NCBI GenBank assembly: GCA_903821695.1
Contig: CAIJLX010000051.1
Span: forward strand, 18,963 to 82,962
Length of the DNA stretch: 64,000 bases
Origin: an uncultured Alphaproteobacteria bacterium
GTDB taxonomy: Bacteria > Pseudomonadota > Alphaproteobacteria > Rickettsiales > CAIJLX01
Reading direction: 5' to 3'
Part shown: positions 51,011-61,954 of the stretch, in pieces
How the letters are laid out: every line of letters begins with the position of its first letter
Numbering within the stretch: position 1 is the first letter of the stretch
Notes under the pieces: model-generated
Told to the model about the DNA's origin: nothing
What the model saw: only the letters and a program-made list of their open reading frames with translations
The model's database searches: none
Position numbers and translations under genes: made by a program

Positions 51011-52201
51011 TTAGCCAAACACCTTCATCGTTTTTGGTCGCACCAATAATTCTTCGCCTTTTTTGACTGCCAATTGATCGACCACGTTTTTTTGGATTTC
51101 GGCTTGGATGACTTTACCGTTATTGCGTTCGATATCGACTTTTACTAATGCGCCGGCTGGGTTGATGTGCACGACTTTGCCTTTGATATATTCTTCGCCA
51201 TCGAGTGCTTTGCGGGCGATATACATTTCGTGTGGGCGGGCGTAAATTTTGACTGGCACGCCTTCTTCGGGGCGCACTTTGGATTGTTTGCGTTTATAGG
51301 TGGTGGAGGATGTTTCCTGCACTACGCCCGGTACGATTTTGTTTAAAAAGCCGGTGATTTCTGGATAACGCGAGAGAATACCGCCGGGTTTGTATACTTC
51401 CGTGACCGTTGTTTCGATCACGTCATGTTCGGCGAGGTGGATATTGCCGTCGCCATCCTTGAATCCATCGAACTCATTATAATTGCCGAGGAAGTCATAA
51501 ACGAAACTATTCGCCGGTGCGTGATAGACTTCTTCCGGTGTGCCAACTTGTTCGATGCGTCCATTGCTCATGACGACCACGCGGTCGGACACTTCCATCG
51601 CTTCTTCCTGGTCATGCGTTACGAAAATGCTGGTGACGTGGATTTCATCATGCAGACGGCGCATCCAGCGGCGGAGTTCTTTGCGTACTTTTGCATCGAG
51701 TGCTCCGAATGGTTCATCGAGCAATAATACTTTTGGTTCTACTGCAAGTGCGCGAGCAAGTGCGACACGCTGGCGCTGACCGCCAGAAAGTTGGTGCGGA
51801 TAACGGGTATGGAAATTTTCCAAGTGTACGAGTTCTAGCAGCATCATTACTTTGCGACGAATTTCGGCTTCGGTCGGGCGGGTTTCGCGGGGACGAACAC
51901 GCAAGCCGAAGGCCACGTTATCGAATACGCTCATATGTTTAAACAGAGCGTAATGCTGGAAGACGAAGCCGACATGGCGCTCTTTAATATGCTTATTATG
52001 GGCTTCTTCGCCGTCTAAAATGATGCTGCCGGAATCGGCTTGTTCTAGGCCGGCGATGATGCGCAGCAATGTGGTTTTGCCGGAACCGGAAGGGCCAAGC
52101 AATGCGATCAGCTCACCGGATTTGACTTCCAGGCTCACATTATTGAGCGCGGTAAAATCGCGGCTGAAACCTTTAGTGATGTTTTTAACGTGAATGCCCA
52201 T
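51011..52201 (-). CDS. cysA: Sulfate/thiosulfate ABC transporter ATP-binding protein
   Basis: [53 protein letters not shown]; adjacent cysW/T. Confidence 0.95.
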
Positions 52202-53015
52202 ACCGACTCTCAATAAACTGCTTTAGCACCAATGTCACCAGCGCCAGCAAGGTTAAAATGGAAGCAACGGCAAACGCCGCCACGAAATTATACTCGTTAT
52301 ACAAAATCTCTACATGTAGCGGGATCGTATTGGTTTCGCCCTTAATATGGCCCGACACCACCGATACCGCCCCAAACTCGCCCATCGCCCGCGCATTGCA
52401 GAGCAGCACCCCATAGAGCAAGCCCCATTTGATATTGGGCAACGTTACATGCCAGAACGTATACAAACCGCTCGCACCCATCATCACGGAGGCTTCCTCT
52501 TGCTCCGTGCCCTGCTCTTCCATCAACGGAATCAACTCACGTGCGACGAAGGGGAATGTGACGAAGATCGTGGCGATCACCAAGCCCGGCACTGCAAAAA
52601 TAATCTGGATATTATGTTCAGATAACCATGCACCTAAATAAGAATTTGCACCGAATAATAGCACATAAATCAAACCTGAAATGACGGGCGAAACCGAGAA
52701 GGGCAAATCAATCAGCGTGGTTAAAAATTGTTTGCCGTGGAAATCGAATTTCGCGATCGCCCAGCTTGCCGCCAAACCAAATACCAGATTGAGCGGAACA
52801 GCGATTGCAGCAACTAATAAGGTGAGTTTAATCGCGGCGACTGCATTTTCTTCCTTAAGACTATCCAGATAGGCTTCGGTACCTTTACGGAAAGCTTCGG
52901 CGAACACGCTGGCTAGCGGCAGACCCACCAATAACAGCAAAAACCCGACTGCCAGCGTGATCAATAGCACGCGCATCCAGATGGGTTCATTAATATGATT
53001 GGAGCGTTTGCGCAT
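52185..53015 (-). CDS. cysW: Sulfate ABC transporter permease CysW
   Basis: Six-TM permease, [52 protein letters not shown]. Confidence 0.94.
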
Positions 53016-53851
53016 TAATATCTCTTACGGCTACCTGCCGCCCAGCGTTGCAATAAATTGATGAACAACAACATGAAGAACGAAATAATGAGCATCACGC
53101 ATGCAATGGCGGTTGCACCCGTATAATCATATTGCTCGAGCTTAATGATAACGATGAGCGGCACGATTTCCGAAATCATCGGCATATTGCCAGCGATAAA
53201 AATAACCGAACCATATTCCCCCAGCGCACGTGCAAACGCCATCGCAAAGCCAGTAAGCAAAGGCGGGAACAAATGCGGGAACATAATTTTGCAGAACACC
53301 GTCAAACGCGATGCGCCGAGGCTTGATGCCGCTTCTTCAATCTCCGGTTCAAAATCTTCTAGCACCGGCTGCACCGTGCGCACAACAAATGGCAGCCCAA
53401 CAAATATCAGGGCAATGGTGATACCGATTGGAGTGAATGCGATGTTGATACCGAGTGGTTCGATTATTTTGCCGATCCAACCATTGGGCGCATACAGTGC
53501 TGTAAGCGCGATGCCGGCTACTGCGGTTGGTAAGGCAAACGGAAGATCGACCATCGCATCTAACATTTTACGGCCGTAAAAATCATAGCGCACCAATACC
53601 CATGCAAGTAGCAAACCGAACACGACATTGACGCTGGCGGCGATGAATGAGCAGATAAAGGTGATGCGATAGGCTGCCATTACGCGGGGAGAAGAAATGG
53701 ATTCTATGATATGCGCCCAATCGCTGGTCGCGGTTTTAAAAAACAGACCAGAAAGCGGGACGAGAACGATCACGGCCAAGTATAAAACCGTAAAGCCCAG
53801 CGCAAGGCTGAACCCGGGAATGACCGTGTGTGATTTTAATAATGCGCGCAT
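53015..53851 (-). CDS. cysT: Sulfate ABC transporter permease CysT/CysU
   Basis: VDLPFALPTAVAGIALTALYAPNGWIG, EEAASSLGASRLTVFCKIMFPHLFPPLLTGFAMAFARALGEYGSVIFIAGN. Confidence 0.95.
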   Translation of the reverse strand: MRALLKSHTVIPGFSLALGFTVLYLAVIVLVPLSGLFFKTATSDWAHIIESISSPRVMAAYRITFICSFIAASVNVVFGLLLAWVLVRYDFYGRKMLDAMVDLPFALPTAVAGIALTALYAPNGWIGKIIEPLGINIAFTPIGITIALIFVGLPFVVRTVQPVLEDFEPEIEEAASSLGASRLTVFCKIMFPHLFPPLLTGFAMAFARALGEYGSVIFIAGNMPMISEIVPLIVIIKLEQYDYTGATAIACVMLIISFFMLLFINLLQRWAAGSRKRY

Positions 53852-53930: not shown

Positions 53931-56543
53931 TTAAAGGTTAGGGGATATCGTTTTTTCTGCCAACCCTTTGATTTGTTTGAGGTTATCAGGGTGTACAATG
54001 AGTCCTGTAGGCTTAGGATGTGGAATACGCTCTCCCGGCTCAATCGTCACTGTTTTAGGCGGCGCATTGGCATCCAGTCCGGTTACCACTTTATAGCCCT
54101 CAATTCTATCGCCGGCCACTTCACCCCCGATATTAAAGCGATTGCGCACGGAAACATAAGGACCATCTTGTGTTTCCAGTTCATTTTCATAGCCCTTCTT
54201 AGAAGCTTCAACTATTGGTCCGTGGAATCTGAAAGTGTCATATGTATGTGCAGTAATGGCTATTTTCACTTGATAATCTTTAGGAAGTGGCTGGCCTCTT
54301 TGCGGGAGACCGCCAGCTGCAGGGTTGGAAAGCTTATGTGTATCTTCAGTAGTGCCGCTTTCGTTTTTTACATCAGGGCCAACCACGCCGATATCACCTT
54401 CATTGCGTAAAGTGGTGACGGTAGGCACGCGCCTGCCGCTTCCTTCTTTAGGGGCAAACAATGTGTTAGCGATGTTTCCTTCCATATCGGCAGAAGCGCA
54501 AGGGCCTTTGTGACCATGCACGACTGTTTCCTGACCCGGACCGAAGACAAAAATCTGCTCCACAAATCCAAATTCCTCATCTCGAAAAATTTCAACCTTG
54601 CGGTAGCCGCCGGGCTTATAAGGGTCCGAAGGAAATTTTTCTTCTTCTAATAATAAATTTGGAAATTTTTTCAGCAATAAAGGCTTCACGCGCTCAACCT
54701 CGCGCATAGGCTCTGCGCGCAAATCAATCAAATCCTGACGTAACCCTTCCGCCTCTGCTTTCAGCTTTATTTCCTGCTCACCCGTAAGTGCGTTGGCCAA
54801 TTGTTCTAATATTGCAGCCCTTTCAGTTTCAATATTTTGAAATAGAGATTGGTAAGGTCGGTATATTTTTTGAATCTCTGCCTTCAAGCCTGCGCGATCT
54901 CTAGCAACCTCTTCACTTGCACCTTTTTGTCGTTGTTGCTCGATTTCATCCTGTAATTTTTGATGTTCTTGATTTATTTCACTACCAACATATTCGCCGC
55001 AACGTTCGTTGTGCGTACGCCCTTCTTGCCAACCATTATTTTCGATTCCGCCAACGCGAGCAATGGAAACTGGAACCATGTCCGGGGAGCCTTCGGCGTG
55101 AGGTTTATCTTTTGCAAGTTTGATTGCTCTGTTTTTAAGACGAAGTGTGTAAACCCCTTGGTCTATTAAACTTGCGACGAGTGGATCTTTGGTTAGATCG
55201 CGTTCTGGGCCGGTACAGTTAACGACAGTGCCGACGCGTCGAATAGTTTTTTCTTCACTTTTAAAAGGCCCGCTGGTTTCCGGCGCATGATCGGTAGCGA
55301 CCGGTTTGGTAGTATGACAAACAACAGAAACGGAGCCATCATCTTCAATCCGCACATAATCCAGGCGGCCATTGCGTGCCTTGATGTTCTGCCGCTTCAT
55401 TTCTTCCTGTATGGCTTCGAAAATATCAGGGTCAATACGATTGCGGAGTGAGCTATACCATGAACCCCAATTGCTTAAAAATTTATCGACTTCTTCTTCC
55501 GGCATTCGGGCTTCAATATCCGGCATCTTAGAGCGCAAAGCCGTCATCACGTTTTGCCAGCCCTCTTTTAGCCTGCCACTTTTTCTATCCAGTATGACCG
55601 ACATTAAACGGTCAACCAACTCTTGTGCCTTAATGGTATCTTGTGCAAGGAGCGAATCCAGGAAATCCGTTTTATAAGAAACAGGAAGGCGGATATGCGG
55701 TGCAGGAATAAGAGATTTTGGCGAAAGCCACTGCAATGTATTTCCGTCAACAGTACCGGCATCTATTTGTGCCTTCACGTGGTCGACAGCACTCGGACCA
55801 CTTCCTACTACAACGATTGGCAATTCGGTTGGCACATTCGGCACCCATGGATTTTGGATAACGCTTGAGTGTTCTTTAAGTTCGTTGCCCTTCGAATCGA
55901 CTATCTTCAAATGTTTTGGTTTTGGGTTGCCACTATCATCAAGTACAAATCGGAAATGCTCGACTTTTTCTCCACTCGTTGTTTCCAACCATCGATTACC
56001 AACATCACCACCGACAGCATTTACACGAGACGCGATAAACTCAAGTTGTACCCCTTTTTCTTGGACCTTCTGCAAAACGAGTGGCTTGACACCGAATTCA
56101 ATATAAAGGCCAAAAAGTTGGCGGCGGTTATAAGTGTTATCGGTGAATTTTTCACTATCACGCGCAAGCGTTTGTATGAGCTCAAGCTTTTGCTTTAAAT
56201 GATTTCGCTCTTCTTCATTCGTGCTTTTTTCTAATTGTCCCCGCACTGTTGCTTCGACAGTGGCAAAACCATCTTTGGCCTGAAGCCATTTGAGAAATCC
56301 ATCTGGGCGCAACCAAACGTGCGCTTCTTTATCATTGGTAAAACCCATTCGTTCTGTGGCTACGTTTAGTGCGCCAATAGAAGTATAAGCTGGTCCTTTA
56401 AACTCATTATCAGTGCCATATGAAGGCCCAAAGGCAGTAATTTTTGTGCCGAGCGCCGCTTCAGGAGTAAGTTTTTTGACGGTATTATAGATAGAGGCGA
56501 GTGCGCCCAATCCATCCCCAATAATCGCTATGTTTGCAGACAT
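53931..56543 (-). CDS. FAD/NAD(P)-binding protein fused to C-terminal cysteine-dioxygenase-like cupin
   Basis: N-term NIAIIGDGLGALASIYNTV plus PIVVVGSGPSAVDHVKAQI (two Rossmann motifs); C-term YRKVEIFRDEEFGFVEQIFVFGPGQETVVHGHKGPCASADMEG ... EDTHKLSNPA ... IAITAHTYDTFRFHG resembles the CDO H-x-H ... H pattern. Start at MSANIAI with GGGAG RBS. Confidence 0.7.
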   Translation of the reverse strand: MSANIAIIGDGLGALASIYNTVKKLTPEAALGTKITAFGPSYGTDNEFKGPAYTSIGALNVATERMGFTNDKEAHVWLRPDGFLKWLQAKDGFATVEATVRGQLEKSTNEEERNHLKQKLELIQTLARDSEKFTDNTYNRRQLFGLYIEFGVKPLVLQKVQEKGVQLEFIASRVNAVGGDVGNRWLETTSGEKVEHFRFVLDDSGNPKPKHLKIVDSKGNELKEHSSVIQNPWVPNVPTELPIVVVGSGPSAVDHVKAQIDAGTVDGNTLQWLSPKSLIPAPHIRLPVSYKTDFLDSLLAQDTIKAQELVDRLMSVILDRKSGRLKEGWQNVMTALRSKMPDIEARMPEEEVDKFLSNWGSWYSSLRNRIDPDIFEAIQEEMKRQNIKARNGRLDYVRIEDDGSVSVVCHTTKPVATDHAPETSGPFKSEEKTIRRVGTVVNCTGPERDLTKDPLVASLIDQGVYTLRLKNRAIKLAKDKPHAEGSPDMVPVSIARVGGIENNGWQEGRTHNERCGEYVGSEINQEHQKLQDEIEQQRQKGASEEVARDRAGLKAEIQKIYRPYQSLFQNIETERAAILEQLANALTGEQEIKLKAEAEGLRQDLIDLRAEPMREVERVKPLLLKKFPNLLLEEEKFPSDPYKPGGYRKVEIFRDEEFGFVEQIFVFGPGQETVVHGHKGPCASADMEGNIANTLFAPKEGSGRRVPTVTTLRNEGDIGVVGPDVKNESGTTEDTHKLSNPAAGGLPQRGQPLPKDYQVKIAITAHTYDTFRFHGPIVEASKKGYENELETQDGPYVSVRNRFNIGGEVAGDRIEGYKVVTGLDANAPPKTVTIEPGERIPHPKPTGLIVHPDNLKQIKGLAEKTISPNL

Positions 56544-57020: not shown

Positions 57021-57044
57021 GGTTTGTCATCCTTTAGAGTAAGT

Positions 57045-57074
57045 GGTGGAGAAAACCTTGCGGCTCTCTCCACC
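57045..57074 (-). terminator. Hairpin downstream of the sulfate-binding protein gene
   Basis: GGTGGAGA ... TCTCCACC inverted repeat directly after the stop at 57082 (minus strand); no clear U-tract. Confidence 0.45.
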
Positions 57075-57081
57075 GGTTTCG

Positions 57082-58074
57082 TTATTTTGCGCTGTAGATT
57101 TGGTCGAACACGCCGCCTTCGCTGAAGTGTTTTTCCTGGGCTACTTTCCAGCCACCGAAATCTTTGATGGTGAGCAGGTTGAGCGTTGGGAAAGTGCTTT
57201 TATATTTTGCAGCCACTTCCGGATCGGTCGGACGATAGTAATGGCGAGCGACCAGATCTTGTGCTTCTTTGCTGTAAAGATGCTCGAGATAAGCCTTCGC
57301 AACTTCCGTTGTTCCGTTACGCGCTGTATTCTTATCAACCACAGCAACGGGTGGCTCTGCTAAAATACTCAATGTTGGAATTACGATATCGAATTTATCT
57401 TTGCCGAGTTCTTTTTTAGCAAGGAATGCTTCGTTTTCCCATGCGAGCAACACATCACCGATACCGCGTTGGATAAAGGTAGTGGTGGAGCCACGCGCGC
57501 CGGTATCAAGCACTGGCACATTTGCAAATAATGCTTTGACGAATTCTTTCGCTTTCGCTTCGTCACCATTATTATGCTTCAATGCATAACCATACGCCGC
57601 GAGATAGTTCCAGCGTGCGCCGCCGGAAGTTTTCGGATTTGGCGTGATGACCGAAACACCAGGTTTCACCAAATCATTCCAATCTTTGATATGTTTTGGA
57701 TTCCCCTTTTTCACCAAGAACACAATGGTTGAGGTGTAAGGCGCGCTGTTATTTGGCAGTTTCTCCTGCCAATCAAGCGTGAGCAGTTTTGCTTTATCTG
57801 CGATTGCATCAATATCATATGCAAGCGCGAGGGTGACGACATCGGCTTTGAGGCCATCAATCACCGCACGTGCTTGTTTGCCGGAACCACCATGCGATTG
57901 ACGAACTTTGACATCATCACCGGTTTTGGTTTTCCAGAATTTGGCGAACTGATCGTTATATTCCTCATAGAGTTCCCGCGTTGGGTCATAAGAAACATTC
58001 AGTATTTCCACCTCTTTGGCGGCGAGCGATGTTGTAAACAGCAGAGCTGTCAGCGTTAAAATAATTTTGTTCAT
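57082..58074 (-). CDS. sbp: Sulfate ABC transporter substrate-binding protein
   Basis: [79 protein letters not shown]. Confidence 0.96.
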
Positions 58075-58090
58075 GATAATCCTCTTCTAA

Positions 58091-59428
58091 TTAAAATCTG
58101 AATTGTAAGCGGTTGATAATAGCTTGTTCGTTTTGACGGTCACCGCGTGTCGCACCACCATCAAATGAAGTGTAGGCATAGTTGGCATTCCATTTCAGGT
58201 TATTGTTTAAATACCAATTGAGGCCTGCCACATATTCACGTGCTTCTTTGACGGATTTGGTTGGGTCAGCATAAATCGGGAACGCTTTGTCATCAATATT
58301 AAGCTGGCTTACCCGGCCCAAAACTTCCCACGCACCCCATTGTCCGCTTTGCAAATCGAAATCGTTTTTCACTTTTACACCTTCGAAGCTTGCATCTTCA
58401 CCGGTCAACACATAGCTCGCGAGCAATGTCCATGCATCGTTGCTGAGCGTTGTTTTTCGGCTGCCGTTGCGCACATTGCCATCCGCTTTCACATATTCAC
58501 CCAAGAAGCCGAATGGACCGCCATAGTAATAGACTTGCGGGTTGATGCGCCATTCATTGCCATCGGCGATGGATCCGGTGGAATACGTAAACACTCTCGC
58601 TTGCGCATTTGAGCGATAACCATCGGTTAGCCCCGTGTTAGTCGTAGTACCATTGCGGTTACCAAGGCTACCGGCAACACCAACGCCAAGACCTTGCAAC
58701 ACTGCTGTTTCCGAATTGCGGAAGGGGTGTGCGAATACACGCGCGGTTACGTCTTTTGCGTTATCCGTATCACTATTGGAGTCACCATAATCTGCCGTAC
58801 CATTGGTGAAGGCTACTTGGTATTCGAGTGTTTGTGGAATGAATTCACCATAGAACTGCACCCCAATATCGCGGAATGGAACAAGGTTTGTCGCAAGGCC
58901 GCGTTCCGCAAACGGCAATTCTTGCTCGCTCTGCCAGCGCTCTAAACCAATCGGCGATTTGAATTTACCAACGCGAATGTTAAATAATTTTTGCGGTTTG
59001 TAATCGGCATAAGCATCTACCACCCGTGTTTGGTTGCCACCGAAATCAAGCATCAGGCGACCTGAAAAATCATCTTTAATTTTTGCTTCGAAAATAGGCC
59101 GCGCTGTACGCACCAAGAACTGGTTCGTATTGCTTGAGTTATCATTATTTAGATAAGTGCGATTATCGATTTGTGCATAACCACGTACACGGAATTCATA
59201 ATCTTTATTCGGCGAGGTCACCACAAACCCACGTTTATCATCTAGCTGCACCGTCGCGCTTTTTTCGGATTGTGCTTTTTGAACTTCCTCTTTTACTTCT
59301 TGCTTCCGTTTCAGGATCGCAATTTCTTGTTCCAGCGCTTTGAGGCGTTCGCTAATATCCTCCGCATGACCAAAACTCGGCAGCAAAACGGTGAGCGCTG
59401 TGGTGGCAGCGAGTAGATGCTTCTTCAT
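58091..59428 (-). CDS. Phosphate/sulfate-type OprP/OprO-like porin
   Basis: Signal peptide, short coiled coil, then barrel with FRVRGYAQIDNRTYLNN, KIKDDFSGRLMLDFGG, C-terminal ...NRLQFRF*. Confidence 0.88.
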   Translation of the reverse strand: MKKHLLAATTALTVLLPSFGHAEDISERLKALEQEIAILKRKQEVKEEVQKAQSEKSATVQLDDKRGFVVTSPNKDYEFRVRGYAQIDNRTYLNNDNSSNTNQFLVRTARPIFEAKIKDDFSGRLMLDFGGNQTRVVDAYADYKPQKLFNIRVGKFKSPIGLERWQSEQELPFAERGLATNLVPFRDIGVQFYGEFIPQTLEYQVAFTNGTADYGDSNSDTDNAKDVTARVFAHPFRNSETAVLQGLGVGVAGSLGNRNGTTTNTGLTDGYRSNAQARVFTYSTGSIADGNEWRINPQVYYYGGPFGFLGEYVKADGNVRNGSRKTTLSNDAWTLLASYVLTGEDASFEGVKVKNDFDLQSGQWGAWEVLGRVSQLNIDDKAFPIYADPTKSVKEAREYVAGLNWYLNNNLKWNANYAYTSFDGGATRGDRQNEQAIINRLQFRF

Positions 59429-59697: not shown

Positions 59698-59871
59698 TTA
59701 TTTTACGAGTAGTAATTTGTCGTTACTGGTTTTGATGAGTCGGTAAATCTGGTCGCCATGCTCGATGAGCAATTCACGGCCGGATTTTAATAGATCGATG
59801 CTTTTCATTCGCCGAGTGGATAACTCAAGGGACGGCGTATAATGCGTCAATGTTTGTTCTTCGATATGCAT
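59698..59871 (-). CDS. HemP-like small protein
   Basis: RRMKSIDLLKSGRELLIEHGDQIYRLIKTSNDKLLLVK* resembles the hemin uptake protein HemP C-terminal pattern; start MHIEEQ with AGGAG. Confidence 0.72.
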   Translation of the reverse strand: MHIEEQTLTHYTPSLELSTRRMKSIDLLKSGRELLIEHGDQIYRLIKTSNDKLLLVK

Positions 59872-59881
59872 ATTCTCCTCC

Positions 59882-60025
59882 TTATTTATCAAAACGGCGT
59901 TTAACAGATTTCTCAACTTGGACGACCCGCGAATCATGAATGGTGATTTCGACCGAGCCATAATCAATCCCTTTGAGTGACTCCAAAATAAAAGCTTCCA
60001 CATTTGCGTTTTCTTTTTCGCTCAT
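59882..60025 (-). CDS. DUF2292 (YezD/OscA-like) small protein (47 aa, absent from track)
   Basis: Manual translation MSEKENANVEAFILESLKGIDYGSVEITIHDSRVVQVEKSVKRRFDK*; DUF2292 pattern GSV.I..HD..VVQ.; 4-nt overlap with rrf2 stop. Confidence 0.85.
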   Translation of the reverse strand: MSEKENANVEAFILESLKGIDYGSVEITIHDSRVVQVEKSVKRRFDK

Positions 60026-60444
60026 ATTGCTCCTCCTTGATTCACTAATTCTTTCAACGTCATACCATCCAGCACGCCCGCAATTGCATTGCGCACTTTG
60101 AGCATCACCCGACGTACATCACAGCTATTTTCATCCACACAATCATCGCAGCGGCGATAGGCGGTGGTGCTGGCGCAGGGAATCGGCGCCAATGGGCCAT
60201 CGACCATCCGAATCACATCGCCAATGCGGATATCGCGTGCGGGCCGAGAAAGAAAATAGCCACCAAAAATCCCACGCTTGCTATCCAAGATTCCGTGCCT
60301 TTTCAAATCGAGCAAAATAGCCTCCAAAAACTTGGGCGGCACATCCGCTTCCTGGGCAATCGCTTTTATAGGCAACATCTTCTTCTCCTGCTTCGCCATT
60401 ACAACCAAACTCTTCAGTGCGTATTTTGCTTTCATGGATAGCAT
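60022..60444 (-). CDS. Rrf2 family transcriptional regulator
   Basis: MKAKYALKSLVVMAK...IAQEADVPPKFLEAILLDLKRHGILDSKRGIFGGYFLSRPA; Cys-rich PCASTTAYRRCDDCVDENSC. Confidence 0.93.
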   Translation of the reverse strand: MLSMKAKYALKSLVVMAKQEKKMLPIKAIAQEADVPPKFLEAILLDLKRHGILDSKRGIFGGYFLSRPARDIRIGDVIRMVDGPLAPIPCASTTAYRRCDDCVDENSCDVRRVMLKVRNAIAGVLDGMTLKELVNQGGAI

Positions 60445-60471: not shown

Positions 60472-60488
60472 CCTATAAACATAATAGG
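60472..60488. promoter_or_regulatory. Dyad in the divergent rrf2/60500 intergenic region, possible Rrf2 operator
   Basis: CCTATaaacataATAGG, followed by TATAGGG at 60492-60498. Confidence 0.4.
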
Positions 60489-60499
60489 GATTATAGGGT

Positions 60500-61954
60500 A
60501 TGTCAACACACAATCTGTTTTTTTCTCAAAATAGCCTGTTACTTAAGGTTTTATTAACTGGAATCGTGGATAATTTGCTGATGGCGTTACCACCAGATGG
60601 CATCCGTAGGTTGTTAGATGAGCTTTTCTTGAGTTCTGATAGCGAGCTATTAAAAGATAAGTTAAAAACACTGCGGATTGGCGAGCTTTTACGTTTTCGC
60701 GCGATTGAAGACGGAATGATGTTTAGTGTTAAATATGAGGTGGAAAACATCCTACAGCTGCGTGCGACGGAAAATGAAATAATCCGAGTATTCCAAGATC
60801 TCGATATACCATTTCGAATGAGCAAAAAAAGCACCCGTTGGTTTGGCCTAATAGATGAAGGCAAACCACGTTTTTATGGTGTTTTAGATGATGGCCTAAT
60901 GAAAGCAGTTCATTCTCACACTACAGCAAAAGCATTACATGATAAGATGGTTTTGGCTGGCGAGATCAAATATCTTACCAAACAGACATATCCAGATGAC
61001 CCCATTTCGGAAGACATGATGGCATGGGCAATGGCCCTAAAGGGAACCACTTCTCTACTAGGCCCTTATTTTCCTACATCTGCATTAAAAAATCTGAGTG
61101 ATTCTTCGAGTCTTCTCTATGAAGTAAAATTTACTTTAACAAAGCATAAGCTAGGCCATACCTTCCATGAGAATCCATCATTACTTGATTCTACCCTTGC
61201 TGCCATTGAAGAATTCGGATTCCGCCGCCTATCTTTTTGCGGCAGAGGAAGTAGTAGCTTTGCCTTCAAAGGCGTGAGGGACAAAGAAGATAATCCGCAA
61301 TTAGTCCTAATTACGCCAGGCAATCAGGAGCGCGTTCCGCATCCTTGTATATTGCCTGCCATTGAGCAAAAAATTATCGGCAATAAAGAAATACTCGTGC
61401 GTATTATGCCGGGCCTAGACACGGATACCGAAATAACCGAACACCATATGGACCAATTAAAAAGTCTCATGAATGCCAGTGGTTTGTATACAAGCTTAAC
61501 CGCAGGCAATCTATCCGAAATCAGGCCCGGTAATGTTGGCTTATATACGTTTATAAATGAGGCTGGCGAAACAAAAACTGTGCCGATGATTCTTGATTGG
61601 GGTGCCATTTCTTGGAATGCACCTGACAAACCAATGCCAACGATAGAACAACAACAGGCTATGCGAGAGCGCTGGGAAAAAACACCCGAACTGCAAGATT
61701 GGCTCGAAGCAGAACGTAGTATCGCCAAACAAGCACAAAACGTTTATCGCGGGGAGCAATTGGATGCGTTGCCGCAGGAAGGAACTGTCGCAAAATCCCT
61801 GCATAAAGGGCTTTATCCACCAGAAGTCGGCGTGCTATCGCAGATGGCAATCAATGAAGCTCTACAGGGAACCAGGGCCTATCATGAAGTGATGCGCGAA
61901 TTAGTAGAGTCGCAAGATCTATCTCTCTCACCAAGCGTTTTGATTTACCGCTAG
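60500..61954 (+). CDS. Hypothetical protein with a kinase-like fold signature
   Basis: 484-aa ORF; GRGSSSFAFKG (P-loop-like), IRPGNVGLY ... MILDWGAISW (catalytic loop/metal-binding-like). Confidence 0.6.
   Translation: MSTHNLFFSQNSLLLKVLLTGIVDNLLMALPPDGIRRLLDELFLSSDSELLKDKLKTLRIGELLRFRAIEDGMMFSVKYEVENILQLRATENEIIRVFQDLDIPFRMSKKSTRWFGLIDEGKPRFYGVLDDGLMKAVHSHTTAKALHDKMVLAGEIKYLTKQTYPDDPISEDMMAWAMALKGTTSLLGPYFPTSALKNLSDSSSLLYEVKFTLTKHKLGHTFHENPSLLDSTLAAIEEFGFRRLSFCGRGSSSFAFKGVRDKEDNPQLVLITPGNQERVPHPCILPAIEQKIIGNKEILVRIMPGLDTDTEITEHHMDQLKSLMNASGLYTSLTAGNLSEIRPGNVGLYTFINEAGETKTVPMILDWGAISWNAPDKPMPTIEQQQAMRERWEKTPELQDWLEAERSIAKQAQNVYRGEQLDALPQEGTVAKSLHKGLYPPEVGVLSQMAINEALQGTRAYHEVMRELVESQDLSLSPSVLIYR

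Follow-up and report, generated by a model that had tools for sequence, protein, structure and literature searches.

A flavoprotein module joined to a cysteine dioxygenase-type cupin in a sulfate-uptake gene cluster of an uncultured alphaproteobacterium

Introduction

Thiol dioxygenases of the cysteine dioxygenase (CDO) family (PF05995), among them Pa3MDO (4tlf), Av3MDO (6xb9) and rat CDO, share a cupin core with three His ligands. The small-molecule thiol dioxygenases carry an SHY motif, which N-terminal cysteine oxidases lack; in about 15% of the small-molecule enzymes Thr stands for Ser (PMC10966181). In Arg-type enzymes Arg60 holds the carboxylate of the substrate, and Gln-type enzymes have Gln at this position (PMC8050391). 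A CDO homologue from Variovorax paradoxus B4, mercaptosuccinate dioxygenase, uses a thiol other than cysteine (PMC8050391).

The other family of interest here is PF13454 (NAD_binding_9), an FAD/NAD(P)-binding module. For PF13454 proteins of the group described below we know of no substrate, product or activity, and the accession does not occur in the non-subscription literature searched. In the window, which is the whole 64,000-nucleotide stretch of contig DNA analysed, a single gene within a sulfate-transport cluster encodes a PF13454-type module followed by a CDO-type cupin. Each domain is of a known kind; their single-chain flavoprotein–CDO order was not seen elsewhere in the collections searched.

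Results and discussion

The fusion gene and its cluster

The first-pass annotation, made from the letters of the window, had described one open reading frame of about 870 codons. The frame is intact on the minus strand (870 residues, zero internal stops, zero N; Table 1) and its start codon is preceded by GGGAGC, a plausible ribosome-binding site. The protein consists of the flavin module, a charged and probably helical linker, the cupin domain, and a C-terminal extension that falls in a gap of all aligned CDOs. The linker is the Glu/Lys/Gln-rich stretch recognised earlier: 48% of its residues are E, K, Q, R or D, and P and G together make up 6%. Domain searches found no membrane or DNA-binding domain in the protein, and there is no Rfam match. 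The third-position GC content of the gene (0.29–0.42) is below that of its neighbours (0.46–0.58), so the gene may be of different origin.

Table 1. Features of the fusion gene and the surrounding cluster (positions in the window)
Feature	Position	Strand	Basis or remark
cysA, sulfate ABC transporter ATPase	51011..52213	-	NCBIfam TIGR00968, above cut-off
cysW, sulfate permease	52185..53015	-	NCBIfam TIGR02140, above cut-off
cysT, sulfate permease	53015..53851	-	NCBIfam TIGR02139, above cut-off
Flavoprotein/CDO fusion gene	53931..56543	-	ATG 56543, stop 53933-53931, intact 870-aa ORF
Residues 776-870, C-terminal extension without recognised relative	53934..54218	-	Gap in aligned CDOs; pLDDT mostly <50
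Residues 606-775 (start approximate), CDO-type cupin	54219..54728	-	Profile, alignments, model and Foldseek
Residues 521-605, charged linker, probably helical	54729..54983	-	Composition
Residues 468-520, C-terminal part of flavin module	54984..55142	-	Alignment; conserved E501 aligned
Residues 3-467, PF13454 (NAD_binding_9) FAD/NAD(P)-binding module, two GxGxxA motifs	55143..56537	-	Pfam and 70-sequence profile
DUF6356 small protein, 92 aa	56647..56925	-	Pfam PF19883, 4.4e-21
sbp, sulfate-binding protein	57082..58074	-	NCBIfam NF008022, 4e-163
Outer-membrane porin, O/P family	58091..59428	-	Pfam PF07396, 1.8e-33
ORF with hemP domain	59698..60003	-	Pfam PF10636, 1.8e-11; true start probably internal
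DUF2292 small protein	59882..60025	-	Pfam PF10055, 1.5e-14; start overlaps rrf2 stop
rrf2, Rrf2-family regulator	60022..60444	-	Pfam 9e-36; best named NCBIfam model CymR, below its cut-off
Inverted repeat CCTATAA-N12-TTATAGG upstream of rrf2	60472..60497	.	Over a promoter-like site

The cluster reads, on one strand, rrf2-DUF2292-hemP-porin-sbp-DUF6356-fusion-cysT-cysW-cysA. The gene had been placed earlier between cysT and the sulfate-binding protein gene. Both flanks agree with this description, with sbp upstream and cysT-cysW-cysA downstream on the same strand; the DUF6356 gene lies between sbp and the fusion gene. Gaps of about 160 bp on the upstream side of DUF6356, about 100 bp from it to the fusion gene, and 79 bp from the fusion stop codon to cysT are of a size that allows a single operon. 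The inverted repeat upstream of rrf2 is a possible operator for the cluster's Rrf2 regulator; its pattern occurs 0 times in 100 shuffles, a count to be read knowing that the pattern was written after the site had been seen.

Directly after sbp, an eight-base inverted repeat (GGTGGAGA/TCTCCACC, positions 57040-57075) was spotted by eye. Divergent from rrf2, a 484-aa open reading frame (60500-61954, plus strand) has no credible Pfam or NCBIfam family.

The flavin module

PF13454 is the sole Pfam family above cut-off in the protein, matching residues 6–198 with an E value of 4.7e-8 (33.6 bits against a cut-off of 21.8). A profile of 70 family members, built without the fusion protein, extends the match to residues 3–467 (1.2e-36). 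Both methods agree with the flavin module proposed at first, and its two Rossmann motifs are found within this region as G9/G11/A14 and G247/G249/A252, the GxGxxG/A signatures of dinucleotide binding.

The module departs from its relatives at several positions that are highly conserved among the 70 sampled sequences, though not known to define the family: SRRG is changed to SPKS, HRHR to LRNR, and the Trp at position 344 to Glu344. Since SRRG and HRHR are changed, the module is best described as a divergent PF13454 member, and with several family-conserved residues altered it may differ in activity or in the cofactor it prefers. The fusion protein is only about 22–24% identical to its best plasmid-borne PF13454 relatives. 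Other PF13454 proteins have matches to the flavin N-monooxygenase family Lys_Orn_oxgnase (PF13434) as well, and it is through these matches of relatives only that the module may be likened to class B flavin monooxygenases. The whole protein contains four cysteines (409, 443, 515 and 682), which form no CxxC or CxxxxC pair, and this argues against a role as a disulfide reductase.

The C-terminal domain resembles thiol dioxygenases

Neither the Pfam CDO model nor a genome-wide PF05995 search detected a CDO domain in the fusion protein, so the proposed CDO-like cupin called for an independent test. By sequence, the C-terminal part has its best PDB matches in 3-mercaptopropionate dioxygenases, at a weak E value of 0.008. 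A stronger link is provided by a standalone 182-aa protein from a different proteobacterium. It belongs clearly to CDO_I (3e-13) and matches the fusion protein at 1.2e-4 in the genome search and at 2e-11 in a pairwise BLASTP comparison. A profile of 28 CDOs, from which the fusion protein was left out, scores it at 42 bits, whereas 5,000 shuffles reach 5 bits at most; the E values are 2.1e-10 for the C-terminal part and, for the protein at full length (Z=40000), 1.6e-9. At the level of sequence, the likeness to CDO exceeds chance.

The residues that matter for catalysis are retained. The first-pass annotation had noted a resemblance to the ligand set of type I CDOs, an HxH pair plus a distal His, and these are H676, H678 and H736, all of which fall in invariant columns of CDO alignments of 9 and 34 sequences. 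Other invariant columns of both alignments, Tyr647, Gly-Gln 670-671, Asn740, His766 and Tyr768, are kept as well. Cys682, invariant in the 34-row alignment, stands where CDO has its cross-link residue Cys93. The stretch 'TAHTYDTF', also picked out at first, is the counterpart of the SHY motif, here Thr-His-Tyr (T764/H766/Y768). The three His ligands, the SHY motif, Tyr647, Gly-Gln 670-671, Asn740 and a predicted cupin core are shared with Pa3MDO, Av3MDO and rat CDO. Unlike these enzymes, the fusion protein carries its cupin behind a flavoprotein, has Lys649 at the Arg60 position, an insert of about 14 residues before the SHY motif and the C-terminal extension, and is missed by the Pfam model. 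With Lys649 at this position, neither the Arg-type nor the Gln-type subgroup can be claimed for it.

An AlphaFold2 model calculated from the 34-row alignment contains eight strands, mostly with pLDDT of about 80–88; block means are 69–88 over residues 641–740 and 58–85 over residues 741–770. The 42 best PDB matches of this model in Foldseek are all thiol dioxygenases, with Pa3MDO at 1.3e-9 for a model from a CDO-only alignment. The mercaptosuccinate dioxygenase structure 8vni ranks 47th, a weaker match than Pa3MDO; the Variovorax enzyme is a single domain, whereas the fusion protein is a flavoprotein plus a CDO-type domain. Prediction from the single sequence, without an alignment, gave a pLDDT of 32 and no usable model. 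Because the alignment consists of CDOs, the model and the sequence evidence are not independent of each other. The absence of a cupin barrel had been named as an outcome that would overturn the dioxygenase reading; the eight-stranded model does not point that way, though the CDO alignment biases it.

A divergent cupin of this kind could also be a sensor or regulator that reads a thiol or oxygen and modulates the sulfate transporter, with no metabolic role. The Lys at the Arg60 position, the inserts between H736 and H766 and the unique C-terminal extension do mark a divergent member, but no catalytic residue is lost, the SHY motif included, and the protein has no detected membrane or DNA-binding domain, so that we consider a sensor very unlikely and treat the domain as a putative thiol dioxygenase.

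Flavoprotein and CDO modules are paired in other genomes

Searches of GTDB contigs, viral contigs and phages returned no close relative of the whole fusion protein, and a plasmid search returned relatives of the N-terminal half only. Nor was a close relative found in the host order (344 genomes, C-terminal query) or class (385 genomes), and no paper on a flavoprotein–CDO fusion in either order was found in the literature searched, again exclusive of subscription papers.

The reverse order does occur. Searching 299 proteobacterial genomes with PF05995 yielded a 642-aa protein (L041, genome G887) in which CDO_I (1e-16) is followed by PF13454 (2e-38), and a relative with 58% identity (L067, G1134) is encoded in a second genome of that family. 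Both genomes are alphaproteobacterial, and in both proteins the two Pfam domains are above cut-off. They share with the fusion protein the presence of both domains in one polypeptide and differ from it in the opposite order, the lack of a long charged linker and the lack of sulfur genes among the scanned neighbours; the CDO domain of L041 has the canonical Arg where the fusion protein has Lys649.

Adjacent genes form a second kind of pairing. In Streptantibioticus cattleyicolor a CDO gene is followed by a flavoprotein gene with a 4-bp overlap, in genome G912 the same order has a 25-bp gap, and in G1127 the flavoprotein gene precedes the CDO gene by 60 bp, each pair on one strand. All three CDOs are confirmed by Pfam, as are the Streptantibioticus and G912 flavoproteins; the G1127 flavoprotein is cut by the contig end and was identified by the local profile only.

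Most CDOs found are standalone. In two samples chosen by CDO alone, a flavoprotein is fused or lies within 1.5 kb at 2 of 42 CDO loci, against a chance expectation of about 0.05 loci, a rough estimate that assumes 1–2 flavoprotein genes per 5 Mb. The pairing cases outside these 42 loci were found with the fusion protein as query and so give no unbiased count. A pattern scan of the genome collection with a two-member CDO alignment (the nine-member alignment was too diverse for this purpose) found 38 CDO loci, of which 0 adjoin a flavoprotein gene. Fusions in both orders and adjacent genes in unrelated bacteria suggest linked function and are independent evidence that the two modules belong together; the fusions in both orders give strong hints that flavoenzyme and thiol dioxygenase would act in one path.

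Several candidates were rejected. A Sinorhizobium meliloti match that seemed to span both domains resolves into two different tandem PF13454 genes on a megaplasmid (L087:5607-8653), with no CDO. Long frames at flavoprotein loci L026 and L037 and at CDO loci L167 and L172 are upstream-frame read-through or lack a flavin module. Separately, a 410-aa alphaproteobacterial protein (L061:676-1908) matches CDO_I weakly in the C-terminal half, and its N-terminal domain has no assignment.

That no second fusion in the flavoprotein–CDO order was found would be expected if the frame were a chimera created by mis-assembly of two genes. Against this explanation, which we rate as improbable in the extreme, are the single open frame without N, the similar codon composition of the flavin and CDO domains, the reverse-order fusion in two genomes, and a sulfate-cluster setting similar to the one in which PF13454 genes occur elsewhere.

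PF13454 genes recur near sulfur genes

In a convenience sample of neighbourhoods from annotated plasmids, a setting much like that of the fusion gene is on a Shinella plasmid, where a PF13454 gene adjoins an Rrf2 gene and sbp-cysT-cysW-cysA. At this locus (L101) two PF13454 genes flank the Rrf2 gene, and the one nearer sbp is confirmed. Further PF13454 genes are found near sbp-cysTWA and msuE (Hartmannibacter plasmid), after cysC-cysD-GTPase-sulfonate transporter genes (Streptomyces plasmid), near cysQND and next to Rrf2 (Acidisoma plasmid), and near TauD and an ABC transporter (Azospirillum oryzae plasmid). In Nostoc edaphicum the gene adjoins a sulfonate-binding protein gene, and in Nostoc sp. 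UHCC 0302 it sits in an ssu operon. Other scanned neighbourhoods had no clear sulfur link, except for a sulfatase gene in one, so the association of PF13454 with sulfur genes is common and not universal.

In both Nostoc strains (L093:6019-8304 and L095:5971-8280) the flavoprotein is fused to a metallo-beta-lactamase (MBL)-fold domain, which in UHCC 0302 matches glyoxalase II and sulfur-dioxygenase models, both below their cut-offs. The PF13454 proteins of Shinella, Hartmannibacter, Streptomyces and Nostoc belong to the family of the N-terminal 467 residues of the fusion protein and share its sulfur setting. They are, however, standalone or MBL-fused, whereas the fusion protein is joined to a CDO-type domain.

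Proposed function

The first-pass annotation had seen here a self-contained enzyme for thiol or sulfonate oxidation. The domain assignments, the iron-ligand and SHY residues, the sulfate-operon setting and the pairing in other genomes favour this proposal, of which the function itself stays a prediction. Our best explanation, on evenly balanced chances, is that the fusion protein is a bifunctional soluble enzyme that would oxidise small organic thiols, be made together with the sulfate transporter and feed sulfur assimilation. The points in its favour are the domain identities, the conserved catalytic residues, the cofactor motifs, the gene order and the recurrence of the pairing. Points against it are the altered family residues of the flavin module, the lack of sulfur genes among the scanned neighbours of the reverse-order fusions, the 38 CDO loci of which 0 adjoin a flavoprotein gene, and the reliance of the structure model on CDO sequences.

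The C-terminal domain, taken as an Fe(II)-dependent thiol dioxygenase in the CDO/3-mercaptopropionate dioxygenase family, would convert R-SH and O2 to the sulfinate R-SO2H. Judging from its cofactor motifs, the N-terminal domain probably binds both FAD and a nicotinamide cofactor. By analogy with two-Rossmann flavin monooxygenases, it might contribute a second oxidation to this path, driven by NAD(P)H. This step would either make the thiol from a thioether or oxidise the sulfinate further with release of sulfite or sulfonate, and the sulfite could be reduced by the host's CysI. The enzyme would presumably be used under sulfur limitation.

On another contig of the host genome (G000 contig C98, L154), a cysI-like gene, a siroheme-like gene, cysH, cysD and cysNC are clustered; this sulfate-reduction cluster looks complete and would enable the host to use sulfite, in keeping with the proposal. 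A CysJ-type flavoprotein was not found in the host genome by PF00667, despite the cysI-like gene.

L-cysteine is an unlikely main substrate, because the Arg60 position is Lys, the pocket is changed and burning cysteine would be self-defeating under sulfur limitation. Such waste means that the best explanation has to assume a different thiol. A carboxylated one, for instance 3-mercaptopropionate or mercaptosuccinate, is a reasonable guess and no more.

The flavin module could instead be an accessory to a CDO domain that is the enzyme by itself, acting as a reductase that draws on NAD(P)H to hold the iron in the ferrous state or to provide the thiol from an oxidised form. Ferric CDO is inactive, and the module combines both cofactor motifs with several changed family residues. 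CDO-family enzymes need no dedicated reductase for turnover, however, and most of those found are standalone; the module has no redox-active Cys pair, and PF13454 flavoproteins occur in sulfur clusters without any CDO. We regard an accessory reductase as unlikely. Similarly low is the probability we give to two independent scavenging activities joined for co-expression only, a sulfite-releasing flavin monooxygenase and a thiol dioxygenase acting on another compound. Flavoprotein genes do stand alone in sulfate and sulfonate clusters, as CDO genes do elsewhere, but the fusions in both orders and the adjacency in other genomes point to a linked function.

A broader idea, which we put forward tentatively and consider somewhat less likely than not, concerns the family as a whole. 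PF13454 flavoproteins may be the flavin half of undescribed two-step sulfur oxygenation enzymes for sulfur scavenging, the other half being a mononuclear non-heme dioxygenase, of CDO type in proteobacteria and actinobacteria and of MBL type in cyanobacteria, with the fusion protein as a single-chain form in a sulfate-uptake operon. The fusion protein itself makes PF13454, a widespread and little-studied family that recurs in sulfate and sulfonate clusters, accessible to genetic work and suggests a hypothesis to work with. If flavoenzyme and thiol dioxygenase do act in one path, bacteria would have a new way of obtaining sulfur from organic thiols.
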